NCBI GenBank assembly: GCA_014729995.1
Contig: WJIZ01000017.1
Span: forward strand, 1-45,926
DNA from: Candidatus Woesearchaeota archaeon
Lineage (GTDB): Archaea; Nanobdellota; Nanobdellia; Woesearchaeales; WJIZ01
DNA length: 45,926 bases
Direction: 5' to 3'
Part shown: positions 167 through 23,399 of the stretch, one piece after another
Layout: the number at the start of each line of letters is the position of its first letter
How positions within the stretch are numbered: the stretch's first letter is position 1
Position numbers and translations under genes: made by a program
Notes under the pieces: model-generated
What the model was told of the DNA's origin: nothing
The model's input: the letters and a program-made list of their open reading frames with translations, nothing else
Database searches by the model: none

Positions 167-245
167 TTTAACTCTGAAAATTACAAAATAGATAATAATC
201 TAAAATTAACAATAAAAAAGACCTTAAAAAGGGGGGATGTTAAAG

Positions 246-7101: not shown

Positions 7102-8705
7102 TCTAACTGGTCTATTTTCTTTTCTATTGAGCGTGTCCTTTTTTTGAATACAGCTATGATAACTATTATAATTATTAACAGGACAACAAGGCTGACAGCT
7201 GCTACCATCAACAGATAGCTGCTTTCTTCGGCTTCTTCCTGGCTCAAAGCAGTCTGGTTTTTATTGATGTAGGGATCTTCATATATACCCTCTTCATCTT
7301 CTTTTTGGACAGGTGTGATAGAAAGCACTTCCTTTTTTTCCAGGAAATCCCCGTAAGGAGATTTGTAATTGACATTTACTTCGATATTATGCTCTGTATT
7401 CGGCACGACAAATGACAGCATAAAAACTTCAATTGTCTGCTGGGGCTTAATTTCCTTGACATATGCTTTTGACTTTTCAAGAGGAAGGTCTGATTCAAGG
7501 CTTATGTCAACCCCCTTATATGTGTGGGAGAGGTGAGGATTTGCAATTTTTATAGGAACAACTGCTTTTTTGCCTGCTATAAATTTTTCCCTTGGCAGGA
7601 CTATATTCAATGGCCTGGTTGTAACCTCTATATTATGCTCCTTCTCCACAGTATGCATTATTTTCCTGAAACCGTATTCTATCTTTTCCCTAAACGTGAA
7701 ATTACCTAATTTTTCTGCCTTTATGTCGTATGAGAAAGAGGCATTCTTGCCTTCGGCTATTTTTTCGTCGTAAACATAATAGTCTGCAGTAAACCATTCG
7801 TTTCCGGATTTTTTTGCCTTAAAGCCGTCCGGGAAATACAGGCGGTGCCTGAACGGATTTATTTCAAATTCTTTATTATTGTTTTTTACATTTATTGTTA
7901 TTTTAGCTGTATCCCCCAATTGGAATTTTTTTTTGCTGAAAACCGCATCTAACCAGAATGGGGATGCGATGATTTCTATATCCTGCTGCAATGACTCATT
8001 TTCTGAGCCATAAAGCAAATAACCCCGAGAAGTAAAGCTAATGTTGTTTTTTCCTTTTATGTAATAGACTATTACTGTTACAGAAGAGCTTGGGTTGCCT
8101 GTCCATGTAATCCTGTTATTTTCCTGTTTGCAGTTATGGGTCTCAATAATGCTTACCTGCCTGGGATATGGGTCAAAATATTTAGCGCCTATAATACTTT
8201 TGCTGCCGGTATTTTTAATCTTAACCTCTACTCTTGAAACTTCGCCCACAGCTAGTTTTGTTTTTTCGAAATTCCTCTCTATCTGCACATCTGTCTTGGG
8301 CTTGGAAATTGTCAATTTAGCATATATTGGATAATGCTGGGTGCGTATGTCAAATTCCTTGTCAGAGCCCCTCCTGACATGCATAAGGCAGGCATGGTAT
8401 ATGCCTACGTCCGTGCAGTCGCAAGCTATGGTGTTATCATTATTGTCTTTGCATTCACAGGTATCTTCATCATCCGTGAAATAGCATCTTCCAGGGTATC
8501 TCAGCGTGCTGGTCTGGCTGTTCGGAAAAATTATTTTCGTTGTATATATGTCGCTGTTTTCCAAATTCCTTATTACAAAAGGCTTTTTGTCTATGGTAAT
8601 ATTAGCAGTATCTTTTACTTCTTCATTATAGACTTCTTCGAGTTCTACTTCTGCGTATGCTATGCTTATTAAAATTAAGAAAAGGAGTGAGAGATACGGC
8701 TTCAT
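7098..8705 (-). CDS. Secreted membrane-anchored protein with Ig/CARDB-like domains
   Basis: 535 residues. A signal peptide covers about residues 1-18 and a single membrane helix about 498-518, followed by a short charged cytoplasmic tail. Between them are a cysteine-rich segment (about residues 75-108, with seven Cys) and three beta-rich stretches resembling CARDB or DUF11-type Ig folds. These begin near DVQIERNFEKTKLAVGE, LDAVFSKKKFQLGD and LNIVLPREKFIAGK. Such folds usually serve as spacers or protein-binding modules on archaeal surfaces. The gene has its own TATA-like box and overlaps the MEMO gene by four bases. It lies just downstream of the pilin genes, so a role in surface assembly is possible but unproved. 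Confidence 0.75.
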   Translation of the reverse strand: MKPYLSLLFLILISIAYAEVELEEVYNEEVKDTANITIDKKPFVIRNLENSDIYTTKIIFPNSQTSTLRYPGRCYFTDDEDTCECKDNNDNTIACDCTDVGIYHACLMHVRRGSDKEFDIRTQHYPIYAKLTISKPKTDVQIERNFEKTKLAVGEVSRVEVKIKNTGSKSIIGAKYFDPYPRQVSIIETHNCKQENNRITWTGNPSSSVTVIVYYIKGKNNISFTSRGYLLYGSENESLQQDIEIIASPFWLDAVFSKKKFQLGDTAKITINVKNNNKEFEINPFRHRLYFPDGFKAKKSGNEWFTADYYVYDEKIAEGKNASFSYDIKAEKLGNFTFREKIEYGFRKIMHTVEKEHNIEVTTRPLNIVLPREKFIAGKKAVVPIKIANPHLSHTYKGVDISLESDLPLEKSKAYVKEIKPQQTIEVFMLSFVVPNTEHNIEVNVNYKSPYGDFLEKKEVLSITPVQKEDEEGIYEDPYINKNQTALSQEEAEESSYLLMVAAVSLVVLLIIIIVIIAVFKKRTRSIEKKIDQLE

Positions 8706-9210: not shown

Positions 9211-9777
9211 CTAGCCTGACCTGCCTATGATATTATAGTAGCCTTTGTGCGCCTGACCTGTTTCTGTGTTTAGGTAAAATATGGTTATTTCTGCACGAAA
9301 CCTGTCTTCTGTAATTGCTGTGCCTGAATACATCCTTATCTTGGCCATATTTCCGAATAATACGGATGTGCCGTTAGCATCTATTGTTTGTGTAGATACG
9401 TCTCCGGGAACATTTCCGCCGCTGCCTGATACTGCGTTGAAATGGCCGGGCCCTGCCCCGCTGCTGTCTTCTATAATTGATATATCTCCTTTTGCAGTAG
9501 CGGGATGGCCTGCATCAGCGTCCAGGATTATGACTTCGTTTCTCAGCTGGTTCTTGATGACAAACTCAACATACGCTGTCCCGGGCGGGCCTTCTTTTAT
9601 GGTGGCTTTTTCCAGGCAATTCAATAAGTCCATCGGGCCCTGGCACCTTTCAGGAAGGGACCTTTCGGGAGTTAATACGCCAAAATAAGCCAAGGCGCTG
9701 ATCACGACCAAAACAACTATTATTGCCCAGCCATAAGTCAACAGAAATTCCATTCCTGCCTGTGATTTTTCCGGCAT
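9211..9777 (-). CDS. Type IV pilin-like protein with class III signal peptide (paralogue 2)
   Basis: 188 residues. The N terminus has a short positive leader, then SQAGMEFLLTYGWAII and a hydrophobic helix to about residue 30. This is the archaeal class III layout: a FlaK/PibD-like peptidase would cut before the Gln, leaving Glu at position +5. The helix is followed by a conserved GVLTPERSLPERC block shared almost exactly with the neighbouring paralogue, then a beta-rich domain. The cysteine pair around the PERCQGPMDLLNC segment suggests a disulfide at the base of the globular head. The protein probably polymerises as a pilus subunit. No prepilin peptidase is visible in this window. Confidence 0.85.
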   Translation of the reverse strand: MPEKSQAGMEFLLTYGWAIIVVLVVISALAYFGVLTPERSLPERCQGPMDLLNCLEKATIKEGPPGTAYVEFVIKNQLRNEVIILDADAGHPATAKGDISIIEDSSGAGPGHFNAVSGSGGNVPGDVSTQTIDANGTSVLFGNMAKIRMYSGTAITEDRFRAEITIFYLNTETGQAHKGYYNIIGRSG

Positions 9778-9822: not shown

Positions 9823-10407
9823 TCAGCTTACATCTGATGCTGCTCCTGTTATAGCATAGGTGGCAGGATGCTCTAATCCGGTATCTGTATTTATATACCA
9901 GATTGTCAAGTCACCGTTAAACCTGCCTGGGTCTATATCTATAGATGAATAAGCCCTTACCCTCAGGAAGTTATTATTGGGCACTGCCAGGCCGCCTGCT
10001 CCGACAGCTGCTAGGGTTCCTGTCCCGCCTTCCTGATGCGTCTCAGCTTCGATTTCACCCGTGTTGGCTGGTGTACCATCTTCACACGGAGCTCCCAGGT
10101 CACCTGTTCCAGTAGCTTTGTACTTTGTTGCGTTAGTTGTGTCTAGTATAAGAATCGGGTATCCTAAATTGTTTTTCATAGCTATCTCAAGATAGGCTTC
10201 GCCAGCTGTAGCAGCGTCTCCAGCAATAACTGTTGCCTTATCCAGACAAGTAAGGCCTGCAGGACCGTCGCATCTTTCCGGCAGGAACCTTTCCGGGGAA
10301 AGTACTCCAAAATATGCCAGCGCTCCGATAGCGACTAACACAACCAATATAGCCCAGCCATATGTCATCAGAAATTCCATGGCTGCCTGTGCTCTTTTTC
10401 TAAACAT
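9823..10407 (-). CDS. Type IV pilin-like protein with class III signal peptide (paralogue 1)
   Basis: 194 residues from the ATG at 10407. It begins MFRKRAQAAMEFLMTYGWAI, a textbook archaeal prepilin N terminus, with processing expected before the Gln and Glu at +5. The GVLSPERFLPERC block and following cysteine mirror the downstream paralogue, and the globular heads then diverge. A GTG four codons upstream is open, but it lies inside the GAGGTG sequence (10417-10422) that serves as ribosome binding site for the ATG, so the ATG is preferred. A leader of about 100 bases separates it from the nearest TATA-like box. Its position next to the pilus operon, under separate control, suggests a major pilin needed in large amounts. 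Confidence 0.87.
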   Translation of the reverse strand: MFRKRAQAAMEFLMTYGWAILVVLVAIGALAYFGVLSPERFLPERCDGPAGLTCLDKATVIAGDAATAGEAYLEIAMKNNLGYPILILDTTNATKYKATGTGDLGAPCEDGTPANTGEIEAETHQEGGTGTLAAVGAGGLAVPNNNFLRVRAYSSIDIDPGRFNGDLTIWYINTDTGLEHPATYAITGAASDVS

Positions 10408-10519
10408 TTTTTCTTGCACCTCTTTTTATTCTATTTTATTGTTATCGCGTTCCTTGCTGACTGATGGCAATTATCTTGCTTTCATCTCAGTAAGGGCCGG
10501 CATTTCTTCTGTTTTAAAT

Positions 10520-10669: not shown

Positions 10670-11734
10670 TTAAAATATGCCCGACATAGCGTAGCCAAGC
10701 AGCTTATTCAGGATAAAAAATAATACCAGCGTGGAGAATACGAACAAAGGCAAATACCTGAATCCTGCCCTTATGTTGCCCTTTTTTATGGTTGCGACGA
10801 TGCAGGCTGAGAGAAAGCTGGTTATTGTCAGTGTGAAGTATGCAAATATCATAAAGTCTGAGTGGGCGACGCTTACATCTGTTATGCCTATGGGCATCTG
10901 GCTTGCGCCTGTTTCTGGAATTTCTATTGTTGAGACTATTCCCTTGATTATTATCAGCAGCTGGCTGGACAAAGCCAGCAGAAAGGGGGCTGCGAGCACT
11001 GCTGCGAAGCTGATAAAAATGGCATAGGTTGTGACGGAAGCGGACATCTCTTTTTCCATTATCTTGCTCTGCTGTATGTTTGTTGAGATTCTGTCAAGCA
11101 GTTCGCCTATTTCTCCTCCTGCTGCCAATCCTTCTATGAGAAGGCTGATTGACCTTTTCAATAATGGCGAGTCGTATTTTTCAGCAAAGCCCCTTAAGGC
11201 ATCTTCTAAGTCTGAGCCTGACATGGTCTGCTTGGCGACATCTTCCATCTCTTTTGCAAGCACCCCAAAATTAGGCCTTATAGCGTGCCATAATGCCTGG
11301 TCTATCGGCATGCCTGCCCTTATGTTCGCTGAAGTAAGCTGCAGAAAATCCGGAAAGACATCTTCTATGCCTACTTTTCTCTGATAGACCCTGAAGTCTA
11401 TGAATACATAGAATACAAGCCAGGCCAGCAGCATAAGGGCAATGAAGCCGATTATCCAGACAAAAAGCATCACTACCAGCAGGTATGAAAGGGTAAATTC
11501 CTCGTTGAATGAGAATATGAGTATGATATATGCGGAAATTAAAATATTGATGATTACAACAGAATCAAAAATTACCTTGGTTAGCTTGTCTTTACTTATG
11601 TTTAAGCCTGATTTTTCTAGCAGCTTCTGCAGCCGCTTTCTGGGCTTTTTAGCTTTTTCCTTTTTGCCGGGCTTTTTCTTCTTATTCTTCTCGCCATCTT
11701 TCTTTTTCTCATCATTATTTTTTTTGGGCTTCAT
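10670..11734 (-). CDS. GspF/TadC-type pilus assembly membrane protein with Lys-rich N-terminal tail
   Basis: 354 residues. The first 45 or so are almost entirely Lys, Glu, Asn and Pro, a highly basic cytoplasmic tail. Two membrane helices follow (about residues 55-75 and 80-110), then a T2SSF domain. This contains the typical FPDFLQLTSANIRAGMPIDQAL helix and the GLAAGGEIGELLDRIS element. Further membrane helices lie near the C terminus. Proteins of this family form the membrane platform on which the secretion ATPase acts. The start codon overlaps the stop of the other GspF-like gene by four bases, with GTGGAG just before it. It is the last gene of the operon. Confidence 0.88.
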   Translation of the reverse strand: MKPKKNNDEKKKDGEKNKKKKPGKKEKAKKPRKRLQKLLEKSGLNISKDKLTKVIFDSVVIINILISAYIILIFSFNEEFTLSYLLVVMLFVWIIGFIALMLLAWLVFYVFIDFRVYQRKVGIEDVFPDFLQLTSANIRAGMPIDQALWHAIRPNFGVLAKEMEDVAKQTMSGSDLEDALRGFAEKYDSPLLKRSISLLIEGLAAGGEIGELLDRISTNIQQSKIMEKEMSASVTTYAIFISFAAVLAAPFLLALSSQLLIIIKGIVSTIEIPETGASQMPIGITDVSVAHSDFMIFAYFTLTITSFLSACIVATIKKGNIRAGFRYLPLFVFSTLVLFFILNKLLGYAMSGIF

Positions 11735-12543
11735 AACTCCACCGCGGGCCTGTTTGATTTTATCATTGCCAGGAAAAAGAACTGCATAAAACCGAGAAAT
11801 ACTGCCATCACTAAGAGTATGGTAAGGTTTAATGTAAGGCTGAGAAAGCTTGATAGGACAATGAACATTGTAATGCCTATGGAGGGCAGGATAACAGCTA
11901 TTATCATATAGAACATAGCCAAGGGGTTTAGTTTCCTTCCGTATTCCTTTATCTCTATAAGCTGCTCCTGTGTTATCTGGTTGACCACTGACTTAAGGGA
12001 AGATGCTATGTCTGCGCCGGTCTTCTGCGAGTTTATTATCTGCCAGAGGATTTTCCTGAAGTTTGCAGAAGGCGTGAACTCTATCGTCTCGTTCAGGGCG
12101 TGCTCCATCTGGGTTCCGAGATCGATCTTAGTGACTATGTCATTGAAATAACGGCCTATTACAGGGTAATTCTTAGCTATATTCTTGAATGCATCATATA
12201 GGGGGACTCCTGATTCAAGCTCGATTATCAGAAAGCGGCCTGCAAAGACGATCTCTGAGTTTATGCCGCGCTGTATTCTCAGTATCTTAAAGTCGGGCGA
12301 TTTCATCAGGTAAAAGAAAATAACCACGAAAAGGGAAGGGGCCAAAACAAGCAACAGGCCTGTGAAATTTCCAAGCTTTGAAAGTACGAGAAAAAGAAAG
12401 ACAGTAAAGCCAACAGAAGAATAGAAAGCAGCAAAAAATGTTTTTTTAATGAATTCTTCTGGGATGTCTTTCATGTCAGCCTGCCTAAGCTTCAGCTCTA
12501 AGTTAGGGATGAGCTTGGAGAGCCTTTCGAAAAATACAGACAT
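11731..12543 (-). CDS. GspF/TadC-type pilus assembly membrane protein
   Basis: 270 residues with an N-terminal amphipathic stretch, two early membrane helices (about 35-55 and 58-80), a T2SSF domain and two C-terminal helices. The T2SSF domain contains GRFLIIELESGVPLYDAF and SQKTGADIASSLKSVVNQI. Archaellar FlaJ carries two such domains in one longer chain; here they are two separate proteins, as in Tad systems with TadB and TadC. The ATG directly follows the stop of the ATPase gene, and a GGTGATT ribosome binding site lies within the ATPase gene's last codons, so translation is coupled. Confidence 0.88.
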   Translation of the reverse strand: MSVFFERLSKLIPNLELKLRQADMKDIPEEFIKKTFFAAFYSSVGFTVFLFLVLSKLGNFTGLLLVLAPSLFVVIFFYLMKSPDFKILRIQRGINSEIVFAGRFLIIELESGVPLYDAFKNIAKNYPVIGRYFNDIVTKIDLGTQMEHALNETIEFTPSANFRKILWQIINSQKTGADIASSLKSVVNQITQEQLIEIKEYGRKLNPLAMFYMIIAVILPSIGITMFIVLSSFLSLTLNLTILLVMAVFLGFMQFFFLAMIKSNRPAVEL

Positions 12544-14280
12544 TCAATCACCTTTGAATGGGATATTCTTATTTACATATCTCATTAAATTGTCTTTTTT
12601 TGTGTAGAATTCTGCCATTATCCTGCCTACCTCGTCTGTATCATTTATCTCATGCTTTACAAGCCAATTGAGTATTTTTTCCTTCTCCGCTATCTCTTTT
12701 TCTATAGTGGACTTTTTCAGTCCGGTGTACATCTCCAGGGTGTTAAGCACTTCTTTTGATTTGCTGACATCAACCAGCTTGTCTTTTGAAGCATTATACT
12801 GCATCAAAAGATTTGGGGTGCCGTCCTCTTTCATCTCAGCTATCTGGAATGTCCTTCTTAAGCCTGTTCTCCTGTTCCTGTATTGGACAATGATAAGGCT
12901 GATGGCAGGAAGCATTGTTTTAGGGATTTCTATCGGGGGGGAGGTAAGCCTGGTGATTGTTTCTTTTGTGTTGTTTGCATGGACAGTCGCGGATACCGAA
13001 TGGCCTGTATGTATAGCCTCAAAAAGGATCTCAGCCTCTTTTTTCCTTCTTATTTCGCCTACGATAATGCGATCTGGGCGCATCCTTAAGCTGTTCACCA
13101 GAAGATCGAGCATTGTTATTCCGCCTTTTCCTTCTGTATTGGGCTGCCTGGTGACAAGCGGAACCCAGTGAAGAAATTTAGCCAGCTGGATTTCGCGGGT
13201 ATCTTCTATGCTTATTGTCCTCTGGTTCGGAGGGAAGAAGTTGGTGATGACATTCAGCATGGAGGTTTTGCCGGATGCTGTCCCGCCTGCGATAAGTATA
13301 GACAATTCATACTGTATGCACTGCCACAGGAAAGCGGCTGCCTTTGCTGATATCGTGTTCTCTCTTATGAAGTCTGTTATGGTCCAGGGCCTTGCTGAGA
13401 ATTTTCTTAAAGTTATAGTGTTGCCTTTTGCTGAGATCGGCTTTAATGTGGAGTTTACCCTGTCCCCTCCCTCTATGTTAGCATCCATTAGGGGCTCGAG
13501 TATGGAAATCTGCCTGCCCACTTTTCTGCCAAGCATCGCCGAATAGTGCTTTATCTGGTCTTCGTCTTTCAATATAACATTGGTCTTCAGCCAGCCATGC
13601 TTCCTGTGGTAGACCCATATGGCTTCCCCTGCATTGTTTATGACTATTTCCTCGAGCCGGGGATCGTCGTCAAGTATTTCTACATTCCCCATGCCCAGGC
13701 TTTTCTTAATTAAGTAAGAGGTGAGGAATTCCTTTGTCTGGTTGTCGGCGTCTGGAAAATATTTGTCTATCAGGTTTTGTATTGTCTCCTTGAATTTCTG
13801 CTCTGCTGTGCCTTCCTGGGAATAGCTGGCAATATTGACCATGCCCAGGTTAACCTCTTTAATAAGCTCTTTTCTTATCCTTTCAAGTATTATCTCTGTT
13901 GTTTCGCTTATGCTAGAGATAGATATCTCATATATCGGGACAAACTCCTTGGGATCCCTATAAACCTTTATGATTATGGGCATCTTGTCCGATTCGAAAT
14001 TGTACTGGTCAATCAGAGAATGCTTTGAAGAATCGGGCCCCTGTACAGGCTTTTTCTTAGTTATATTCTTTTTTTTAGTTATAGCCTTAGCCCCTTTTTT
14101 TTTCGTAGCTTCTTTTTTTTCCGTCTTTGGAGCAGGGCCGTTCCCTGGCCTTTTAATCCTTTTTTTCTTTGGCGGCTCTTTCTTTGCCTTTTTCTTTTCC
14201 TTTTTGGCTGCCGCGGGCTTTTTTTGCTGCTTACCTGTTTTCTCGACCTTGTCTATAAATCCCATTTTATTTGACTCCAT
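12544..14280 (-). CDS. Type II/IV secretion system ATPase (FlaI/TadA/VirB11 family) with Lys-rich N-terminal extension
   Basis: 578 residues. The first 85 or so are a Lys/Ala/Pro-rich basic extension. A secretion ATPase N-terminal domain follows, and then the RecA-like motor. The Walker A motif GGTASGKTSML lies near residue 331, with the Asp box SIEDTREIQL, the Walker B region DRIIVGEIR near 402 and the His box GHSVSATVHANN after it. It powers pilin extraction from the membrane and assembly through the GspF platform. The ATG at 14280 overlaps the end of the upstream coiled-coil gene; an ATG at 14265, nine bases after a GGAG, is an alternative. No FlaH partner is encoded nearby, which separates this locus from archaella. 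Confidence 0.93.
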   Translation of the reverse strand: MESNKMGFIDKVEKTGKQQKKPAAAKKEKKKAKKEPPKKKRIKRPGNGPAPKTEKKEATKKKGAKAITKKKNITKKKPVQGPDSSKHSLIDQYNFESDKMPIIIKVYRDPKEFVPIYEISISSISETTEIILERIRKELIKEVNLGMVNIASYSQEGTAEQKFKETIQNLIDKYFPDADNQTKEFLTSYLIKKSLGMGNVEILDDDPRLEEIVINNAGEAIWVYHRKHGWLKTNVILKDEDQIKHYSAMLGRKVGRQISILEPLMDANIEGGDRVNSTLKPISAKGNTITLRKFSARPWTITDFIRENTISAKAAAFLWQCIQYELSILIAGGTASGKTSMLNVITNFFPPNQRTISIEDTREIQLAKFLHWVPLVTRQPNTEGKGGITMLDLLVNSLRMRPDRIIVGEIRRKKEAEILFEAIHTGHSVSATVHANNTKETITRLTSPPIEIPKTMLPAISLIIVQYRNRRTGLRRTFQIAEMKEDGTPNLLMQYNASKDKLVDVSKSKEVLNTLEMYTGLKKSTIEKEIAEKEKILNWLVKHEINDTDEVGRIMAEFYTKKDNLMRYVNKNIPFKGD

Positions 14281-15283
14281 ATTCTTTAAAAGTTTCTTTG
14301 ACTAAGGAAAACTTAGGATTCTTGGAAAATTTCCTGATTTCATTCTGGGGCAGTTTTGCCAAGAGGCTGTTGAGCTCCTGCAATGTCTCCCTTACTTTTT
14401 CCTTTTTCCTGCTTAGCTTTGCCTTATACTTATTTTCGAGCTGCATGTTCATTTTCTGGAGCTTATTCTTACCTGGAGATTTCTTTAACTCCTCCAGCTG
14501 CTGCCTCAGCTGCCTCATATTTTGCGATTTTCTTCTTTTATAGAATTCAAACTGCCTTGTTTTTTCCAGAAGCTGCCTGCTGAGCGCATCTACTTTTCTC
14601 CTTAGCGCTGCAGACCTGTCTTTTCCGGCTATTTCCCTTTTCTGCTTTTTAAGGTCATTATCTTTTTCAGCCAGGGATTCCTTTATCCGGAAAATCTCGC
14701 TATTCGCCCTTTTCCTTTGTTTTGACAGCTCGATCTGCTTCCTGCAGATTGCCTGCTCATTATCAAGCACTTCCCTGACAGCGTCGTGGAACTTTTTTTC
14801 CTCGTGCAGCATATCGCTTATATTCTGCTCTTTTTTTCTCAGCCTCCTGTAACGTGCAGAAAGGCTTTTCTTAAGCTTTTCTAAGTTTTCCTGCTTCCGG
14901 TTCTGCTCATCAAACAATTTTTTAAGCTTTTCATCTTCCCTTTTCAAATCATTCTCAAGTGAAGAAAGGTGCTTCTCCTTGCTTTCCAGCCTTTGCTTCA
15001 GCTGGATAAGCTTTTTTTCAAGCTTCGTGGTCCTGCTTTTTTCCTGCTTAACTTTCCTTTCCTTTTGGCGCAGGGCAGACTCTTTTTTGCGTATAGATTC
15101 CTGTTTTAACTTTACAAGCTTATCAAGAATCAGCGATTCCTGCTTCTCAAATTCGATTTTCTTATTCAGGGCGCCCCTTTCCTGCTTCTTGAGCTTTCCT
15201 AATTTAGACCGGAGCTTATTGAAATTTTTAGAACTGGAAATAGCAGGACTATTTTTCACCCCTTTTTTTGATTTTTTTGCCAT
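14267..15283 (-). CDS. Long coiled-coil protein in the pilus operon
   Basis: 338 residues, almost wholly Lys/Glu/Gln/Leu/Arg heptad-like sequence, with no membrane helix and no signal peptide. The protein is strongly basic at both ends. No catalytic domain is recognised. The ATG at 15283 is preferred over a TTG one codon earlier. It sits between the winged-helix coiled-coil gene and the ATPase gene, overlapping the latter by up to 14 bases, so it is very likely made with the pilus machine. A cytoplasmic scaffold or ATPase partner is the plainest guess. The sequence itself only shows the coiled coil. Confidence 0.75.
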   Translation of the reverse strand: MAKKSKKGVKNSPAISSSKNFNKLRSKLGKLKKQERGALNKKIEFEKQESLILDKLVKLKQESIRKKESALRQKERKVKQEKSRTTKLEKKLIQLKQRLESKEKHLSSLENDLKREDEKLKKLFDEQNRKQENLEKLKKSLSARYRRLRKKEQNISDMLHEEKKFHDAVREVLDNEQAICRKQIELSKQRKRANSEIFRIKESLAEKDNDLKKQKREIAGKDRSAALRRKVDALSRQLLEKTRQFEFYKRRKSQNMRQLRQQLEELKKSPGKNKLQKMNMQLENKYKAKLSRKKEKVRETLQELNSLLAKLPQNEIRKFSKNPKFSLVKETFKEYGVK

Positions 15284-15300
15284 CAAAATTGTCCAGCAGA

Positions 15301-16458
15301 TTATTTCTTAAAAATCGAGCTAAGCTTAACGGCTTCCTGCTCGAACCTGGATTTCTTCTTTTTTATGCCTTCGAATGACTTTTCAAGCTCTTTTATGTGG
15401 CCCCTAAGCCCCGAGGATTTAGATGAAAGGTGGAAAGCCTTTGCCTTTTTTATCAGCTCTATCAGCTCCTTTTCCAAATCCTCCTTTTCCTTATCCATCT
15501 TTTTGATAAGTGCTTCGATGGAAGATTTCTTTTCAAAAAATTCCTTGAATTTATTGGTAGAAGCCTTGCTTTCCTCTATCTCATCGGATATCCTTTTTTT
15601 GTTCTTATTAATTTTATCCAGAATTTCCTTTTGCAGGGCATCTATCTTCTTCTTATGCTCTTCACTTTGCTTAACCAATTCCTCCCCTGCGCCTTTCTTG
15701 TCAGACATATCCTTTTTTATTTTTTCCGCAGATTTTTTCATTTCCTTGATCTTTTTTTCGGAATTATTTACTATCCCCTCTTTTTCATCCAATTCCTTGT
15801 TTATTTTGGCAATGTTTTCCTGGAACTGGCTAAGCCTTTTCCTTATCTGCATCTCCTTTTCCCTTATAGAAAGTGTCTCCAGCCTTTCCTTGTCAAGCCG
15901 CTCCTCTTCCTGGCTTACGTTCTCGACGATGTCTGAATATTTCTGCTGATGCCTTCGAATCTCGTTTTCATAGGCGTCTATTTTTTCCTTAAATTCCTTC
16001 TGCTGCTCAGCTATCTGCCTGTCTATATTCCTCTTTAGGCTTTCGAACTTTTCAAGCTGCTTCATCTCCGATTCGACATACTTGAGGTCGGAACCAAAAT
16101 TTTTTTTTAGATTGTTGAATTGCTCCTCAAATTTCTGGAAGCCTTCGCTTTCCCTGTCTAAAATAGCCAAAGTTACCTCAGCTTTTCTTATGAACCCCTC
16201 CTTTTTGCTGTGGAAATCCTTCTCTTTTTCCTTCACTTCCTTGCTGGACGGCCTCCTCTCCACCAGATAAGGGGTAGCAAACTTATATTCTATGCTTATA
16301 ATCCCTTCTTCCTCGAGAAAATCTGCCCATTCTTCAACAACTATCGGGCCTACACCTAGCTGCTTGGAAGCATCCTGTACTGATATCCTCTTTTTTGCCC
16401 TGATAAGCTGGACCAGCTTATCTACACCTGTTTCGATAACAGAACTTCCTTTAGCCAT
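15301..16458 (-). CDS. Winged-helix plus long coiled-coil protein
   Basis: 385 residues. Residues about 8-65 look like a winged helix: a LVQLIRAKKRISVQDASKQL helix pair is followed by VVEEWADFLEEEGIISIEY. The remaining 300 residues are a charged coiled coil broken by short loops. The gene has its own TATA-like box about 20-30 bases before the ATG, so it can be expressed apart from the upstream pilin genes. Winged helices can bind DNA or protein. With a coiled coil this long and this neighbourhood, a scaffold tethered to the pilus base is as likely as a transcription regulator. The family is not recognised by name. Confidence 0.75.
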   Translation of the reverse strand: MAKGSSVIETGVDKLVQLIRAKKRISVQDASKQLGVGPIVVEEWADFLEEEGIISIEYKFATPYLVERRPSSKEVKEKEKDFHSKKEGFIRKAEVTLAILDRESEGFQKFEEQFNNLKKNFGSDLKYVESEMKQLEKFESLKRNIDRQIAEQQKEFKEKIDAYENEIRRHQQKYSDIVENVSQEEERLDKERLETLSIREKEMQIRKRLSQFQENIAKINKELDEKEGIVNNSEKKIKEMKKSAEKIKKDMSDKKGAGEELVKQSEEHKKKIDALQKEILDKINKNKKRISDEIEESKASTNKFKEFFEKKSSIEALIKKMDKEKEDLEKELIELIKKAKAFHLSSKSSGLRGHIKELEKSFEGIKKKKSRFEQEAVKLSSIFKK

Positions 16459-16476
16459 ACTAATTAATTATTGGCC

Positions 16477-16488
16477 TTTATTTAAAAA
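16477..16488 (-). promoter_or_regulatory. Internal TATA-like box in the pilus operon
   Basis: The minus strand reads TTTTTAAATAAA, ending about 19 bases before the ATG at 16458. The gap here is 48 bases, whereas most neighbouring genes overlap, which supports an internal promoter. Confidence 0.5.
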
Positions 16489-16506
16489 TCTTACTGTAAT
16501 CTGTAA

Positions 16507-17457
16507 TCAGGGCCCACACACTGCATCGTAAATGGGGAGAGAGACGGTTTCCAGCCTTATCCATGTGGTATTTGTTCCATTCACTATACAGCCAGAAACC
16601 GCTGTCTCGTTGAAATAGATGAAATCCACTATTGTATTTGTGGCTGGTTTGTGCACTTGGGGAATGTCCTGGGTAGCAAGCTCAAATTCCGGGATGTTTA
16701 CCAGGCTTTCAATCCCATGCGGGGATGCAGAAAGGTTTTTTTCAAAGCGCATGAGAAAGCTTGGAGCGCGCGCGGATGCTATATACCACGAATGGTTCGT
16801 GTGATTCTTAAGATATCCTATTTTTGAGCTGGAGAAATAAGGCACTTTAGTCCTGATTATCTGGTTGCTGTATTTGCCCTCGCTAATGACAGTGTAGAGC
16901 GGATCTTCAAAATCTATTATTGTTATTTCGGTGCTTATATTTATGTCCCTGTCCCATGAAGCGAGGCCCTTATCGTCCGTAAGGTTGGCTTTGCCTGTCA
17001 GGATTACCTTCACTTTCCACGGTGAGATATGATAAGGCTTCAGGTGCAGGCCATGAAATTCTACATTTATGCCGAGCTTTGAGCCGATATTGGCGATCTT
17101 TTCTGTCCAATTCTTAAAGCTCTGGTTTATGGTAAGGTTTACCTGCTGGCCTGATACTGTTGCGTTCAGCATTATCTCGTTAAAGGCTGCTTCAAAACTC
17201 TTATTTATAAATGAGCCGTTCTCGACCATAAACTGGGATATTCCTATCATGCTTCTCATTGAGGAGATATAAATGCCACGCTCGATATCGTGCTCCATGT
17301 CAGCTATGAAGGAATCCATGGTTTTTACCCTGGTCAGAATTACTTTATTTTGTTCAGCGGGCGAGTACTTATTTGTATTTATGTAATAGACTGCAAGGCT
17401 CGTGAACATTATAATGCCTATTATTGTAAAAAAAGCGCCTTTTTTCCCTATTGCCAT
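16507..17457 (-). CDS. Pilin-like membrane protein of the pilus operon
   Basis: 316 residues from the ATG at 17457. It opens MAIGKKGAFFTIIGIIMFTSL, a positive leader followed by a membrane helix in the style of archaeal pilin-like proteins, with the bulk of the chain outside. NxS/T sequons are frequent. The chosen ATG is preceded by a strong GAGGTGAGG and overlaps the end of the VWA gene by ten bases. An in-frame upstream extension of 18 codons lacks this support. The outer part has no recognised domain. It contains several NITE/TIID beta-like stretches and ends with a Cys close to the C terminus. Likely a minor pilin or tip-complex partner of the VWA protein. Confidence 0.75.
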   Translation of the reverse strand: MAIGKKGAFFTIIGIIMFTSLAVYYINTNKYSPAEQNKVILTRVKTMDSFIADMEHDIERGIYISSMRSMIGISQFMVENGSFINKSFEAAFNEIMLNATVSGQQVNLTINQSFKNWTEKIANIGSKLGINVEFHGLHLKPYHISPWKVKVILTGKANLTDDKGLASWDRDINISTEITIIDFEDPLYTVISEGKYSNQIIRTKVPYFSSSKIGYLKNHTNHSWYIASARAPSFLMRFEKNLSASPHGIESLVNIPEFELATQDIPQVHKPATNTIVDFIYFNETAVSGCIVNGTNTTWIRLETVSLPIYDAVCGP

Positions 17458-20099
17458 ATCCTCACCTCTGCGATTGCAGGGCCCCATAAATAAGGCACTT
17501 GAGATACCCACAATGCCTGTATAGTTAAGTCCTGCTGCTCAATATTGATGTTAATCTTTCCGTTATTGTCGAAATCAAGATTCTGGAGCAGGGAAAGGAC
17601 TGCCTGATCTATGCTGTCTTCATCATCGAAGCCACCTAAATCGCCTGACGAATTATATGTGCTTAGCTTGCTGCCTGAATAATCTTGGGGTACAGAGGCT
17701 GTGATTATGTCCCCGTCTTCTGTTTCTATGCTCCATTTTGAGCCTATTGCTTTAGGATAGACGCCGCTATATGTTATGGATGATTTTACTGCTGCAGTGT
17801 AGATTAAAGTATTGTTCTTAGAGCAGCCTGTATCATTTTTTTTGTCGTCTTGGGTCTGAAGCACCAGCTGGTTATCCCCGTTTTGAAGCATGTTTGGCGC
17901 TATCTGCAGTGAGAAAGGGTCTCCAATATCCTCATACCTTGAGCCGTAATCGCTTATGTTGAATATATCATTGCCGTTTACAGACAAAAAGCTTGTCCAG
18001 TAAGGGCCGGAATAAGATAGCACTTTTGCCTCTGTTATTCTCACCTTTCCGGGAATGGTTATTATCGGTGAGCAATTCCGGAACTTGCTTGTTTCGGCTA
18101 CAATTTCAATTTCACCGAATGAAGCAGGCTCTACTTTGGGGGTGTAATTGAATTTTATGTATGAGTCAGGATAAAGAACAGACTTCCTGTATTGGGCGCT
18201 TACCTCTACTATCTGGGATGAGTAATTGGCTATGACCAGTATCCTCTTTCCGATTGCTTCATAAATCTTAGATATATTCGCTGCATCTGAGGCATTATAG
18301 TAAAGGGATTCATTGCATGCCACTCTCTTTAAAGTTTCATGATCAGCGTTTTCCCCAAAACCCACTGCAAAAACAGTTATTCCCTGGCTACACGCTTCAC
18401 TGCCTGCGTCTGTGGAGTTAACAGCCCCGGAATCCGAGCCAGTGTAGTCGTTAAAATTGCTGCAAAACTTATTTTCAATGCCGTCGGACATAACTACCAT
18501 AAACTTCTCATCGGGTGACGACAGAAGCATGTCCTTTGCCTTGTTTATCCCGCAGCAGATGCAGGTTGCCCACCACCAATTCGTCGAATATGAATTTATC
18601 TCGTTTTGCAGGTTGATTTTTATATCAGTGATAGGCTCGTCGCTTTCAAGGCTGCTTTGATAGCTGGCAAGCCCTACCTTATTGCCTGTCAGGTTTAGCA
18701 CTGTGTCTATGAACTGCAGGCCTGCTTCCTTGGCCAGCTGGAGTTTTGTTTTCGGGATGACTGCGTAATTCTGGTCATTTGGGGTCCAGCCGGAGCATGC
18801 ACCGCATTCCTCATTACTGCATGTGCCTGGATAAGGGCAGCTTTTAGAGCGCCAGCCAGGGCACCAGCCCCCGCCAGTACAGCAGTCATAGCTGCATTCA
18901 TCCACTGTTCCGGGCACGAGGTCGTTCATGCTTCCTGACACATCGGTTACAAGAACAGAATCAGAAGGCTGGCCGGATGTTACGTTATAATCTTCACTCA
19001 AGTTGCCTACGCCCATCCTGATGGGAATATTCTCGGACAGCATACTGGTGCTGTTGTCTATAAAATTTACAAACTGATCAGAACCTGAGCCTGAGCTTAC
19101 AAATACAGATTCGTTAGCAATATTCAGGAATGTTGTCTTGTTATTGTAGAAATGTATATATACTTCCATGGAGTTGAGGTTTCCGGGAATATAGAATGAG
19201 GAATAGAGATTTATTATCCCTGTTATGCCCGGGAAGTTATAATATGCTATCCCCGATGTTTGATTGCTCACCATTTCTTTAGTGAGGTATTCTACCTTTA
19301 CATAGCCACCGGCTATGAAAGATTCGTTCAAAAGGCCCGTGAATATTACTGATATGTTATTTTTTACTCCTTTTCTGAAAAAGCCGATGCAGGGTGAGAT
19401 ATTCCATCTTGTAGAAACCATGTTTCCCTTGACAGGAACGAAAGAACTGCAGAAGCTGTTGTTTATGTATAAGTCAAAGGACGTTCCTGCGTCCAGCTCT
19501 AGAAAGGCCGCTAAAATTTCTGCATCTGCAGGAATTAACTCGAGCTGCCTTGATATGTTTCCCTGGCCCACAAAACCCCCAAAGTAAGCATAAGAGGCAG
19601 TTTTTTTCTCCTTTATGCTCTGGAGGTATGCCCTTGATGTAGAGCCCTTCACAGGCTTGCTTCTCTCATATCCTGAAATCATCTTTCTTGCTGCGATCAA
19701 AGTGCTGTTTGTCCCGTAATCCCTCCTGTATATTTCTGAATTAGCGACAGCCAGGCTGAATCCCATGTTTTTTGGGAATAATTCCCATGTTATGTTTTTG
19801 ATAAGATTCCTGCATTCGCCTGTCTCGTTCAAGGCCCATAGCTCGCCTATCAACTCTATCAAAGTGTGGTTTTCGTTCTTTATTTTTCCCTGGCTTCTGA
19901 GATATTCAACATAACTGTTGTTTATCTCGCTTACCTTTATTTCAGACATTATATTTAGCATATCATTTGCCAGAAAATTGATGTGCTCCGTATCTTTTTC
20001 CTGTATGTACAGGTTTGAGAAAATTAATATTCCTGAAACTATTATGATTGCTGCAATCAGGGCATCTGTTGTGAAAAGGAAGGCTTTTTTTACTGCCAT
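17448..20099 (-). CDS. VWA-domain minor pilin-like surface protein
   Basis: 883 residues. The N terminus, MAVKKAFLFTTDALIAAIII, is a short leader and membrane helix like that of archaeal minor pilins, with an acidic residue at the helix edge. A long glycosylation-rich region leads to a von Willebrand factor A domain (about 380-625) with an intact MIDAS motif DVSGS near residue 386. A later VVMSDGIE completes the fold. An insertion just after the MIDAS loop carries about ten cysteines within 45 residues. The C-terminal 250 residues are beta-rich. VWA domains in pilus tips, for example bacterial PilY1-like or pilus tip adhesins, bind ligands through a metal. By position this is the best candidate tip adhesin of the operon. 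Confidence 0.85.
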   Translation of the reverse strand: MAVKKAFLFTTDALIAAIIIVSGILIFSNLYIQEKDTEHINFLANDMLNIMSEIKVSEINNSYVEYLRSQGKIKNENHTLIELIGELWALNETGECRNLIKNITWELFPKNMGFSLAVANSEIYRRDYGTNSTLIAARKMISGYERSKPVKGSTSRAYLQSIKEKKTASYAYFGGFVGQGNISRQLELIPADAEILAAFLELDAGTSFDLYINNSFCSSFVPVKGNMVSTRWNISPCIGFFRKGVKNNISVIFTGLLNESFIAGGYVKVEYLTKEMVSNQTSGIAYYNFPGITGIINLYSSFYIPGNLNSMEVYIHFYNNKTTFLNIANESVFVSSGSGSDQFVNFIDNSTSMLSENIPIRMGVGNLSEDYNVTSGQPSDSVLVTDVSGSMNDLVPGTVDECSYDCCTGGGWCPGWRSKSCPYPGTCSNEECGACSGWTPNDQNYAVIPKTKLQLAKEAGLQFIDTVLNLTGNKVGLASYQSSLESDEPITDIKINLQNEINSYSTNWWWATCICCGINKAKDMLLSSPDEKFMVVMSDGIENKFCSNFNDYTGSDSGAVNSTDAGSEACSQGITVFAVGFGENADHETLKRVACNESLYYNASDAANISKIYEAIGKRILVIANYSSQIVEVSAQYRKSVLYPDSYIKFNYTPKVEPASFGEIEIVAETSKFRNCSPIITIPGKVRITEAKVLSYSGPYWTSFLSVNGNDIFNISDYGSRYEDIGDPFSLQIAPNMLQNGDNQLVLQTQDDKKNDTGCSKNNTLIYTAAVKSSITYSGVYPKAIGSKWSIETEDGDIITASVPQDYSGSKLSTYNSSGDLGGFDDEDSIDQAVLSLLQNLDFDNNGKININIEQQDLTIQALWVSQVPYLWGPAIAEVRIWQ

Positions 20100-20590
20100 A
20101 AATATAACACCATCGTGATGATCCTTTCCTTATAGAAAAGGAACCTTTTAATGGAAACCAAATTATCAGGGTTTTCAATCTCCTTTATGTTTGTCTTATT
20201 CAGTGCGGGATTTCCTATATATTTTATTCCGGATATGCTCAGGACACTGCCTGACCTGTTTTCGAAAAATATGAGGTAATCATATCTGGTTTTTAAAAGC
20301 AGCTTGAGATTTGCATAATCCAAACTGCTCAAATTTGTTATTTTTGAGCTGTTCAGCCTGTATTCTCCGTTGGTAATTCCAACTTCCTCCACTACAGAGG
20401 CAGTCCAATTTTCAGGAAGGCCTGCAGACATTAAGGTATCTGAAACAAATATTGCATTGCTGTAGAGCTGGTCCAACTCCTCACTTTCTGAGAAATTAGC
20501 AACAAAAATAAAATATAAAGCAACCACAATGAGGAAAAGGGTTATTCCTGCTATTAAGTCAAGGCTCCACATTTGGGATTTTTTATACAT
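20090..20590 (-). CDS. Prepilin-like membrane protein
   Basis: 166 residues. It begins MYKKSQMWSLDLIAGITLFL, a variant class III layout with Asp in place of the usual Glu near the helix start, then one membrane helix and an outer domain. The outer part contains a LMSAGLPENW motif seen in archaeal minor pilin-like proteins, and no cysteine. It overlaps the VWA gene by ten bases and the preceding pilin by eight, so it belongs to the same transcript. Probably a minor pilin. Confidence 0.78.
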   Translation of the reverse strand: MYKKSQMWSLDLIAGITLFLIVVALYFIFVANFSESEELDQLYSNAIFVSDTLMSAGLPENWTASVVEEVGITNGEYRLNSSKITNLSSLDYANLKLLLKTRYDYLIFFENRSGSVLSISGIKYIGNPALNKTNIKEIENPDNLVSIKRFLFYKERIITMVLYLWQ

Positions 20591-20981
20591 TTTTTATTAT
20601 TACCGTGTTATTTACCTTACTGATCCTGTTCTTTCCAATTTCAAGCCTGCCTTTTGTTTTCGGCACTATCTTTGCATACCTGTAATGCTCTGTGATGATT
20701 ATAAGTGTAGAATTTCTCATTTCTATGGAATAATTTATTGTACTGTCTATTTTTTTGGGCAGGGTTATCTGCCTTGCATAGCCGTCTTTTACTACAGCAG
20801 CCACATCCAGCTCATTTTTCAGATTATCTCCGAAATCCACTATGCTCTGCTTTTTCTCCTCTTCTGTGAATTCCTTTATCTGCCATCCTGTAGCCAGTAT
20901 AAACGCGAAAGCTATCAGGGAAACGAAACCAATGAGGAAAAGGAATTCCATAGCTACCTGTGATTTATTACGGCTGTGCAT
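20583..20981 (-). CDS. Class III signal peptide prepilin
   Basis: 132 residues. The leader MHSRNKSQVAMEFLFLIGFV gives the expected processing point before Gln with Glu at +5. A membrane helix and a short beta-rich outer domain follow. It overlaps both neighbours by 8-14 bases. Its small size and single helix fit a pilus subunit or minor pilin. Confidence 0.8.
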   Translation of the reverse strand: MHSRNKSQVAMEFLFLIGFVSLIAFAFILATGWQIKEFTEEEKKQSIVDFGDNLKNELDVAAVVKDGYARQITLPKKIDSTINYSIEMRNSTLIIITEHYRYAKIVPKTKGRLEIGKNRISKVNNTVIIKNV

Positions 20982-21378
20982 CTTGAATTTTTACGTTATT
21001 ATCCATAGCGGATATCTTTATGTACCTCAATCCGGAGCTTGAGGATAGGTTTCCTGTTAAGTTTGTCTTGGCTGTGCTGACTATCTCCGAACCAGATTCC
21101 ATCCTGAAAACAACTTCTCTTTGGTATATGCTTATATATTCAATATTTTCAGGCATATAGACTTTCAATGTAGTGGATGAGGGATATCCGAGGTAGTACA
21201 TGGAATCCGCCGAATCTGTAATTTTTCTTGCTATGAGGGCTGCCTGGTTGTTGTTTACATCATTATATGAAGAATATGAGTGCTCATAAAGCAGAACTGT
21301 CAATAAAGCAGTAATCAAGAAAGCAAAAGCAATTGTTATAACTAGCTCTATGCTGATTTGTCCCCTTTTTTTATCCAT
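20968..21378 (-). CDS. Class III signal peptide prepilin, first gene of the pilus operon
   Basis: 136 residues from the ATG at 21378: MDKKRGQISIELVITIAFAF, a classical archaeal prepilin leader cut after Gly. The frame is open for 39 codons farther upstream, but that part runs through the promoter and the hairpin at 21438-21508 and is not coding. A TTTTATATA box lies at -31 to -23 from the ATG, so the message is probably leaderless. This gene heads a run of overlapping minus-strand genes reaching to 10670. Confidence 0.82.
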   Translation of the reverse strand: MDKKRGQISIELVITIAFAFLITALLTVLLYEHSYSSYNDVNNNQAALIARKITDSADSMYYLGYPSSTTLKVYMPENIEYISIYQREVVFRMESGSEIVSTAKTNLTGNLSSSSGLRYIKISAMDNNVKIQDAQP

Positions 21379-21400: not shown

Positions 21401-21409
21401 TATATAAAA
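21401..21409 (-). promoter_or_regulatory. Promoter (TATA box) of the pilus operon
   Basis: TTTTATATA on the minus strand at -31 to -23 from the ATG of the first prepilin gene, the position expected for a leaderless archaeal transcript. Confidence 0.6.
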
Positions 21410-21437: not shown

Positions 21438-21508
21438 AAAAAATCCAGCCATGGCGTAGGATATTTTGCTTCGTAAAATATCCGTCTCCTGCCATGGCTG
21501 GATTTTTT
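21438..21508. terminator. Long two-part hairpin, probable bidirectional terminator
   Basis: An exact 18-base outer inverted repeat (21438-21455 with 21491-21508, centred on GCCATGGC) encloses an exact 9-base inner repeat (21459-21467 with 21475-21483) around a seven-base loop. A small asymmetric internal loop separates the two stems. Both strands end in six T residues after the stem, as in bacterial-type intrinsic terminators. It lies downstream of the adenosylhomocysteinase gene and just upstream of the pilus operon promoter, so it would insulate the two. Confidence 0.65.
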
Positions 21509-21565: not shown

Positions 21566-22831
21566 TTATGTTCCTTCCTGCCAGCTATCCAGGTAGAGCT
21601 CCTGCTCTTTTGTCAGTATATCTTTTTTTGTGCCTAGCGCCTGTAGCTGCAATTCTGCAATTTCATTATCGATTTCATCCGGCAGAGATATTACTTTTGC
21701 AGCCAACTTGTCCTTATTTTTTACAGCATACTCTGCAGCCAATGCCTGGCCGCAGAAGCTTTGAGCCATTACGACAGAGGGATGGCCCTCAGCTGCTGCC
21801 AGGTTGCATAACCTGCCTTCCCCGACCAGATATATATTTTTCCCGTTATTGAGGGAATACCTGTCTAAGCTGTCCCTTATTTTTTCCTTATGCCTTGACA
21901 GTTTCCCCAGCCCTTCCACGTCGATCTCTAAATCGAAATGGCCTGAATTTGCTAGGATTGCACCTTCTTTCATGGATTCAATATGCTCCCTCCTTATCAC
22001 GTGCTTATTTCCTGTAACAGTTACAAAGATATCACCTAGCTTTGCTGCTTCTGCAATCGGCATGACCCTGCAGCCATCGTGGAGAGCCTGGAGCGCTTTA
22101 ACTGCATCCACTTCACAGACAATCACATTGGCGCCCATACCCTGTGCTCTTGCTGCCACACCTTTTCCGCACTGGCCGTAGCCGCAAACGACAAAGGTTT
22201 TTCCTGCAATCAGGATGCTGGAAGCCCTTAAAATGCCGTCAATAGTAGACTGGCCTGTGCCTAAGAAATTATCGAAGAGGTGCTTTGTCTTTAGGCTGTT
22301 AACTGCGATTACAGGATACTTCAGAGCACGGTCTTTTTCCATTGCCTTAAGCCTTATAACTCCTGTGGTGGTTTCTTCTGCGCCTGCTATTATGCCCTTT
22401 ATCAATTCTTGATGCCTGCTGTGAATTTCAGATATTAAGTCGCAGCCGTCGTCTAATGTATAGTGCGGCTTAGTTTTTATTACGTTATTCAGGAAACGGT
22501 AATAGTCTTCTTTTGTCTCGCCCTTATATGCCCAGATTTTGTATCCTTCTTCTGCCAAAGCGGCAGCAACATCATCCTGTGTTGACAGCGGATTGCACGC
22601 ACAGACAGCGACATCTGCCCCCCCTGCTTTTAGGGTCCTGACCAAAGCTGCTGTTTCTTTCGTAGGATGCAAGGCTATGCCTATCCTTATGCCTTCTAAG
22701 GGAAGCTCTTGTTCAAACCGCTCCCTTATTTTAATGAGGGCTCCCATCTGGGCTTCAGCCCAGGCAATATTTTTCCTGCCCTGTTCTGCAAGCTTTATGT
22801 TTCTTATTTCATAATTTTCTGTCTTATCCAT
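21566..22831 (-). CDS. ahcY: Adenosylhomocysteinase
   Basis: 421 residues. It hydrolyses S-adenosylhomocysteine to adenosine and homocysteine with bound NAD, removing the inhibitory product of SAM-dependent methylation. Key elements are in order: the ALHPTKET His; LDDGCDL; AEETTTGV; the TKHLFDN set of catalytic Lys, Asp and Asn; the GYGQCGKG NAD loop; and NSGHFDLEID. The C terminus, LYLDSWQEGT, is the short archaeal/bacterial form. The ATG at 22831 is chosen because GGTGG sits five to seven bases before it; the in-frame GTG at 22840 is part of that site. The gene is divergent from an Lrp-type regulator and may be controlled by it. Confidence 0.96.
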   Translation of the reverse strand: MDKTENYEIRNIKLAEQGRKNIAWAEAQMGALIKIRERFEQELPLEGIRIGIALHPTKETAALVRTLKAGGADVAVCACNPLSTQDDVAAALAEEGYKIWAYKGETKEDYYRFLNNVIKTKPHYTLDDGCDLISEIHSRHQELIKGIIAGAEETTTGVIRLKAMEKDRALKYPVIAVNSLKTKHLFDNFLGTGQSTIDGILRASSILIAGKTFVVCGYGQCGKGVAARAQGMGANVIVCEVDAVKALQALHDGCRVMPIAEAAKLGDIFVTVTGNKHVIRREHIESMKEGAILANSGHFDLEIDVEGLGKLSRHKEKIRDSLDRYSLNNGKNIYLVGEGRLCNLAAAEGHPSVVMAQSFCGQALAAEYAVKNKDKLAAKVISLPDEIDNEIAELQLQALGTKKDILTKEQELYLDSWQEGT

Positions 22832-22872
22832 CAGAACCACCTTTTGTTTGTGAATGATGTATGTTAGACTAA

Positions 22873-22882
22873 TTAATATAAA
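22873..22882 (-). promoter_or_regulatory. TATA-like box of ahcY
   Basis: The minus strand reads TTTATATTAA, placing the start of transcription near 22850 and giving a leader of about 20 bases with a GGTGG ribosome binding site. Confidence 0.45.
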
Positions 22883-22901
22883 TTTCTATATCTTATGTAG
22901 G

Positions 22902-22936
22902 ATTTGTCTATTTTTAATCTTTTTTATTGGACAAAT
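22902..22936. promoter_or_regulatory. Inverted repeat in the ahcY-lrp divergent region, candidate operator
   Basis: ATTTGTC at 22902-22908 and GACAAAT at 22930-22936 form an exact inverted repeat with centres 28 bases apart, between the two divergent TATA-like boxes. Lrp/AsnC dimers often bind such spaced half-sites and frequently regulate their own gene. The link to the adjacent regulator is inferred from position only. Confidence 0.4.
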
Positions 22937-22945
22937 TTAGTAAAA

Positions 22946-22953
22946 TATATAAA
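22946..22953 (+). promoter_or_regulatory. TATA box of the Lrp-type regulator gene
   Basis: TATATAAA lies 18-25 bases before the ATG at 22971 and 24-31 before the second ATG at 22977. The spacing favours a leaderless start at the second ATG. Confidence 0.5.
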
Positions 22954-22970
22954 TAAATTGAACAATTCTA

Positions 22971-23399
22971 ATGAAAATGGACAAAAAAGATTCAGCTGTT
23001 ATAAGCCTGCTTAGGGAAAACAGCAGGTATTCTGTTCGTGATATTGCAAGAAAGACCGGAATCAGGCCTTCTACTGTGCATCAAAGGATGGCCAGGCTTA
23101 AAGAAGAAGGGGTGATAGAGAAATTTACGGTCAAGACTGACAACAAGAAAGCCGGCGAGAGCTTTGTTGTCTGGATGTTTGTGAAAACAAGGCCTTCCAT
23201 ACAGCTTTCCAAAAAAGTCCTGGATAACAGGCATGTCAAGGAAATATTCGGGATAACAGGGGAGTATGATCTGCTGATGAAAATGAAATTTAAAGACATT
23301 ATAGAGTTTAATGATTATATCATCAAGTTCAGAAAGGAAGAGCCAGTCGAAACAACACACACTATGGTAAGCACAGCATTAATCAAGGAGGAAATTTAA
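22971..23399 (+). CDS. Lrp/AsnC family transcriptional regulator
   Basis: 142 residues. An N-terminal helix-turn-helix (ISLLRENSRYSVRDIARKTG, then PSTVHQRMARLKEEGVIEKF) is joined to an effector-binding RAM domain, with ITGEYDLLMKMKFKD as its central strand-helix. These proteins form dimers and octamers and often sense amino acids. Divergent transcription from ahcY suggests control of methionine/SAM-cycle functions. The ATG at 22977 is an alternative start, two codons in. The ligand cannot be told from sequence. Confidence 0.92.
   Translation: MKMDKKDSAVISLLRENSRYSVRDIARKTGIRPSTVHQRMARLKEEGVIEKFTVKTDNKKAGESFVVWMFVKTRPSIQLSKKVLDNRHVKEIFGITGEYDLLMKMKFKDIIEFNDYIIKFRKEEPVETTHTMVSTALIKEEI

Follow-up and report, generated by a model that had tools for sequence, protein, structure and literature searches.

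The DNA analysed here, hereafter called the window, is a stretch of 45,926 nucleotides from a Candidatus Woesearchaeota archaeon, whose genome amounts to 1.33 Mb (98% complete) and carries the pilus operon described below on this contig (C17). Ten open reading frames are encoded on the minus strand, from position 21378 down to 10670; neighbouring frames overlap by 4-14 nt or nearly abut, and the widest intergenic gap (48 nt) lies between pilE and the first coiled-coil gene. In order, the run encodes three small prepilins, a VWA protein (883 aa), a pilin-like protein (316 aa), two coiled-coil proteins (385 aa and 339 aa), an ATPase and two T2SSF proteins, and two PilA-type pilins are encoded after F2. 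An overlapping minus-strand run of ten genes had been predicted beforehand and is borne out by the ORFs and the Pfam domains. The features are as follows:

21401..21409, minus strand: putative TATA-like box TTTTATATA, about 23-31 nt 5' of the first start codon, proposed from a reading of the sequence
20968..21378, minus strand: minor prepilin pilB, 136 aa, N-terminus KRG/QISIE (ORF; one N-terminal hydrophobic helix; conserved first operon gene)
20583..20981, minus strand: minor prepilin pilC, 132 aa (ORF; weak match to the Pfam model of class III signals, E 0.04; conserved)
20090..20590, minus strand: minor prepilin pilD, 166 aa (ORF; conserved)
17448..20099, minus strand: large modular pilin-like VWA protein, candidate tip adhesin (Pfam VWA, alignment of 50 homologues, AlphaFold2, Foldseek)
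16507..17457, minus strand: pilin-like protein pilE, 316 aa (conserved 3' of the VWA gene; 13 invariant residues among 29 homologues)
15301..16458, minus strand: protein with a winged helix-turn-helix (wHTH) and an antiparallel coiled-coil hairpin, 385 aa, candidate ATPase adaptor (alignments, AlphaFold2, Foldseek, charge, gene neighbourhood)
14267..15286, minus strand: CC2, orphan and very basic coiled-coil ORF, 339 aa, pI 10.3, start probably the ATG at 15283 (ORF, homologue searches)
12544..14280, minus strand: VirB11/FlaI/TadA-type assembly ATPase with a Lys-rich N-terminal extension (Pfam T2SSE; PDB relatives 2oap, FlaI, CpaF)
11731..12543, minus strand: platform protein F1, TadB/TadC/GspF-type (Pfam T2SSF; conserved)
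10670..11734, minus strand: platform protein F2, TadC/GspF-type (Pfam T2SSF; conserved)
9823..10419, minus strand: PilA-type pilin 1, candidate major subunit (PilA homologue 3' of F2 in many relatives)
9211..9777, minus strand: PilA-type pilin 2, candidate major subunit (many relatives have pairs of paralogues)

The last two pilins had been predicted to follow under promoters of their own: the genes are present, and separate promoters are plausible from the A/T-rich, TATA-like stretches found upstream of both. Around the operon, a near-perfect hairpin (AAAAAATCCAGCCATGGC ... GCCATGGCTGGATTTTTT, inner stem GGATATTTT/AAAATATCC; 21438-21508), terminator-like or mobile, lies between the operon and an adenosylhomocysteinase-like gene. 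This AhcY-like gene and a gene for an Lrp-type regulator (21566-23399) are located upstream of the operon, with synteny kept in several relatives (L052, L059, L074). After the PilA genes, a 535-aa secreted protein with a C-terminal membrane anchor is encoded (7098-8705), with homologues in the equivalent place in L052, L059, L074, L101 and L124, and a plus-strand ORF of 1916 aa is found at 237-5987.

The components of a type IV pilus are encoded at the locus and elsewhere in the genome. Indeed, the ATPase carries a Pfam T2SSE domain (E 4e-35; 121.7 bits against a cut-off of 24.9), both platform proteins carry a T2SSF domain (E 4e-16 and 3e-16; 59.6 and 59.9 bits), and a prepilin peptidase is encoded on another contig of the genome (Peptidase_A24 at G000:C29, 49.4 bits, over the cut-off). 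Every pilin-like protein has a single N-terminal hydrophobic helix, and no such helix is predicted in the ATPase or in either coiled-coil protein. The VWA protein shares this helix and is itself pilin-like, although the original prediction had listed it apart from the pilins. QxxxE motifs are recognised by eye in pilB, pilC, PilA1 and PilA2, the curated class III signal model reaches only E 0.04, and the usual Glu5 is missing from pilE and from the VWA protein. Clear pilin signal motifs are restricted to some of the proteins. The ATPase, the two T2SSF proteins and the prepilin peptidase together support the predicted dedicated type IV pilus. A second type IV pilus ATPase locus is present in the same genome (G000:C43, L044 4218-5255) and is composed of an ATPase, F1, F2, a stand-alone wHTH protein of 69 aa and a gene for a KaiC-like ATPase (51-57 bits against an ArlH cut-off of 215).

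Gene order was compared in 23 relatives of the operon that span 21 families within the order, with genes assigned by phmmer. Seventeen of them, representing 16 families, have the full nine-gene order pilB-pilC-pilD-VWA-pilE-wHTHcc-ATPase-F1-F2; most of the incomplete relatives end at contig edges, and in a few (L032, L042) the place of the minor pilins is taken by other genes. A wider set of 80 named loci was picked via the coiled-coil protein, and its counts are therefore conditional on the presence of that protein: the ATPase is found on the contig in 73 of these loci, and in all but one of them (72) it lies directly 3' of the wHTH gene on the same strand, within 550 nt in 69 of the 72, and PilA genes are present in 47 of the 80. 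As judged from these sequence comparisons, conservation of gene order is far above chance. The predicted co-conservation thus holds for the gene of the VWA-bearing scaffold, for one coiled-coil gene, for the ATPase and for the platform genes, and fails for CC2. In many loci, a subgroup of those from Woesearchaeota, a DUF192 gene separates pilE from the wHTH gene (e.g. L068 9565-9906).

CC2 had been regarded as a conserved coiled-coil partner and was rejected as a core component: it is an orphan, absent from all 80 named loci, and genome-wide searches in 20 relatives, the same-genus genome included, returned nothing beyond one coiled-coil match of 22% identity. In other genomes its slot is empty or holds other genes. 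In L117, a DUF835/KaiC-like and CheC phosphatase fusion is encoded between the wHTH gene and the ATPase (11213-12472), its domains hinting at a chemotaxis-type control of the pilus.

The VWA protein has a helix at its N-terminus and a beta-rich scaffold into which a VWA domain is inserted (about residues 379-640; Pfam VWA, E 3e-8) with the MIDAS residues D386, S388, S390, T512 and D539. An alignment of 50 homologues reveals conserved N-terminal (~390 aa) and C-terminal (~240 aa) parts flanking an optional block: the VWA block is present in 41 scaffolds, and the other nine have just 26-56 residues there, which does not support the VWA domain as an obligatory part. The MIDAS is complete in 39 of the 41 VWA-bearing homologues, including the protein of the window. 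The VWA is also the least conserved segment: its mean pairwise identity is 35%, and the N and C parts reach 40% and 44%; relative to the same-genus homologue, identity is 25% in the VWA and 57% (N) and 55% (C) in the flanking parts. Some homologues carry a further 200-580 residues within the VWA region, among them a LamG lectin domain in L075. A TCxCCG motif surrounds the MIDAS Thr in most VWA-bearing homologues (TCICCG at residues 512-517 here; Cys 513 and 516 in 36 of 41 homologues, Cys 515 in 29), and these cysteines could possibly form a redox-sensitive or rigidifying disulfide next to the metal site. The AlphaFold2 model (pLDDT 86) consists of a helix (3-31), the beta scaffold and a Rossmann-like VWA (379-625), and its Foldseek matches include SpaC, Mfa5 and RrgA, which are pilus tip or adhesin proteins, and the VWA pilin PilB of Streptococcus sanguinis (E 4e-8). 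The protein therefore has the anatomy of a candidate modular tip adhesin, and the resemblance of its predicted fold to known VWA tip adhesins favours the tip location that had been proposed for it. Since some wHTH-ATPase loci (L032, L042) have no adjoining minor pilins and nine scaffolds lack the VWA, tip and motor are separable.

The conserved coiled-coil protein is predicted by AlphaFold2 (monomer; moderate confidence, pLDDT 76, pTM 0.37) to form a winged helix in its first ~70 residues (helices 11-22, 27-34 and 38-50, wing strands 54-67), followed by two long helices (72-214 and 223-344) joined by a short turn, from which an antiparallel hairpin of 20 nm is read. No signal peptide or hydrophobic segment is predicted in its 385 residues, and the protein looks cytoplasmic. 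Winged helices usually bind DNA, and the nearest Foldseek matches of this one are repressors, with Sso10a-2 also among the matches. All 52 homologues compared have an acidic recognition helix (mean charge -5), which would be unusual for a DNA reader.

A wHTH profile was searched against 279 genomes of the phylum. Among the 149 matches listed, 122 lie at most 6 kb from a type IV pilus ATPase, 119 of these upstream of it on the same strand. In the initial count, 28 ATPases had no listed wHTH; 16 were followed up and 15 of them have a wHTH gene nearby, and no recognisable wHTH was found on follow-up for the ATPase of L189. As a control, a more distant clade of type IV pilus ATPases from several of the same genomes (L184-L187) has a wHTH neighbour in none of four loci. 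In other orders of the class, the wHTH occurs (i) as a stand-alone protein of 81-190 aa, (ii) fused to helical repeats of 600-900 aa with TPR-like matches, or to CBS domains, (iii) at the C-terminus of membrane proteins with 2-12 predicted membrane segments, in eight loci. In L188 (10263-13268), a single ORF of 1001 aa encodes the wHTH (E 9e-6) between a HerA-like ATPase domain and, on its C-terminal side, a T2SSE domain, a natural fusion of wHTH and pilus ATPase. In L090, a CBS-domain-like protein adjoins the wHTH gene as read from the sequence (6864-7352), and in L150 CBS domains are fused to the wHTH (6737-7726). Because the wHTH stays beside the motor while its fusion partners vary, and because it can be tethered to the membrane or lie within the ATPase chain, the protein is most likely a motor-side (ATPase) adaptor. 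Coiled-coil proteins had been predicted to act at the base of the pilus; this proposal persists in a sharpened form for the conserved one, with its wHTH and hairpin, and is dropped for CC2.

Taken more broadly, the chances are about even that the winged helix is a newly recognised, near-universal and dedicated part of those DPANN type IV pilus motors that make up one clade. It would then be an ATPase-binding plug-in adaptor, fused in different lineages to a hairpin, TPR-like repeats, CBS domains, a multi-TM protein or a HerA-like ATPase, that couples the pilus to various inputs, the adhesive domain of the tip pilin being exchanged as well.

The locus type itself is already known from Hamm et al. 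2024 (PMC11291902), whose account describes two conserved loci with type IV pilus and coiled-coil genes across cluster-2 DPANN, Woesearchaeota included, in which CpaF-type ATPase, TadC and PilA genes adjoin coiled-coil proteins; a coiled-coil gene beside an ATPase and TadC is found here too. The portions of its main text considered here mention neither the VWA modular pilin nor the winged helix with its class-wide fusion partners. Compared by description only, the coiled coils of that account (NAR1_03220, NAR1_01690) are likened to reovirus sigma-1 viral attachment fibres, whereas the wHTH-hairpin protein looks cytoplasmic. The type IV pilus PilB of S. sanguinis (Raynaud et al. 2021, PMC8179133; 7b7p) likewise bears a VWA module with a MIDAS on a pilin with a predicted tip position, but there the VWA is grafted on a small pilin, while the archaeal protein is much larger and holds the VWA within a big beta scaffold whose sequence is conserved to either side of it. 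The Kil/Tad pili of Myxococcus (Herrou et al. 2025, PMC12075869) share a Tad/VirB11-type motor and a minor-pilin tip exposing variable domains, and are used on other cells; they differ in being bacterial, with several tips per genome and a T3SS-like partner, whereas here one tip is encoded per operon and varies between species. Among the ten archaeal type IV pilus variants with adhesins of Makarova et al. 2016 (PMC4858521), the halobacterial clade 4F includes an intracellular coiled-coil protein (arCOG07564), presumed to be regulatory, which by its description can be set beside the wHTH-hairpin protein, although no VWA modular pilin is described for that clade. Nothing direct was found in the literature on a VWA in Woesearchaeota type IV pili or on a winged helix in DPANN pili.

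On balance, this Woesearchaeota locus is probably that of a type IV pilus used for adhesion, whose tip is modular and bears the VWA and whose motor has a cytoplasmic wHTH adaptor. In such a machine, five membrane-inserted minor pilins (pilB, pilC, pilD, the VWA protein and pilE) would assemble into a tip complex; this complex would initiate the filament and expose the VWA domain, a grabbing module that depends on metal (MIDAS). PilA proteins would polymerise behind this tip, pushed out by the VirB11/FlaI-like ATPase via the F1/F2 platform. The wHTH-hairpin protein would serve as the cytoplasmic motor adaptor, its winged helix docking on the ATPase or the platform, and its 20-nm hairpin may scaffold the base of the pilus or take regulatory input.

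Other readings of the wHTH-hairpin protein were weighed. It could be a transcription regulator of the pilus genes, with a DNA-binding winged helix and a dimerising coiled coil as in Sso10a; the repressor and Sso10a-2 matches of the fold are in keeping with this, and archaeal type IV pilus loci often carry regulators (PMC4858521). Yet the acidity of the recognition helix is conserved, the wHTH occurs at the C-terminus of multi-TM proteins and inside the HerA-wHTH-ATPase fusion, and its gene is fixed before the ATPase instead of being promoter-proximal, which makes a regulator unlikely. That the protein is exported and serves as a sigma-1-like fibre for attachment, as the account of Hamm et al. 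2024 suggests for DPANN coiled-coil proteins (PMC11291902), is considerably less probable still. Reovirus sigma-1 structures do appear in the PDB search with the wHTH-hairpin profile (6gaj and 6gao, E 0.005-0.009), but as weak matches among 231 that are all generic coiled coils, and the prediction, made for the monomer, gives an antiparallel hairpin where such a fibre would be a parallel trimer. The sigma-1 likeness fits poorly because the protein has an N-terminal wHTH and neither an export signal nor a membrane segment.

An archaellum or Ups-type variant was also considered, the ATPase and platform folds being related and the best curated model of the ATPase being FlaI. However, the ATPase stays below every NCBIfam equivalog cut-off (FlaI, 264 bits against 550; bindosome BasE, 148 against 1000), the platform proteins match FlaJ/UpsF only weakly (28 of 400 and 24 of 400; 24 and 21.5 bits against the UpsF equivalog cut-off of 400), and F1 and F2 are separate genes beside a VWA tip. 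In addition, no ArlH/FlaH over the cut-off of 215 is encoded in the genome (best match 51 bits) and none is present at the locus of the window, as had been predicted, and no archaellin (PF01917) match was obtained in the genome, control genomes being positive. The curated cut-offs and the lack of archaellin led to the rejection of an archaellum, Ups or bindosome identity; the locus is not a known archaellum or Ups-type variant with FlaH nearby, and the probability that it is such a variant is minimal. The use of the pilus is a closer question. A function in attachment to surfaces or in biofilms, in twitching or in DNA uptake, in place of host contact, is a serious possibility, if somewhat short of an even chance: bacterial VWA tip pilins perform several of these tasks (PMC8179133), and no gene of the operon points to a host. 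By contrast, a fast-diverging tip domain on a conserved scaffold fits biological receptors, and DPANN are largely host-dependent according to Hamm et al. 2024 (PMC11291902). Host contact is plausible as a role of the adhesion pilus.

In loci of this type, the coiled-coil protein is argued to act inside the cell, at the motor, and not outside as a virus-like attachment fibre, and its wHTH adaptor may be used as a marker of DPANN pilus motors in genomes. In the VWA modular pilin, a metal site is available for mutation, and the rapidly changing binding face can be set against host range. Type IV pili are a leading candidate for the means by which DPANN archaea hold on to their hosts, and the pilus described here would be a candidate grappling hook for tiny, probably host-dependent cells.
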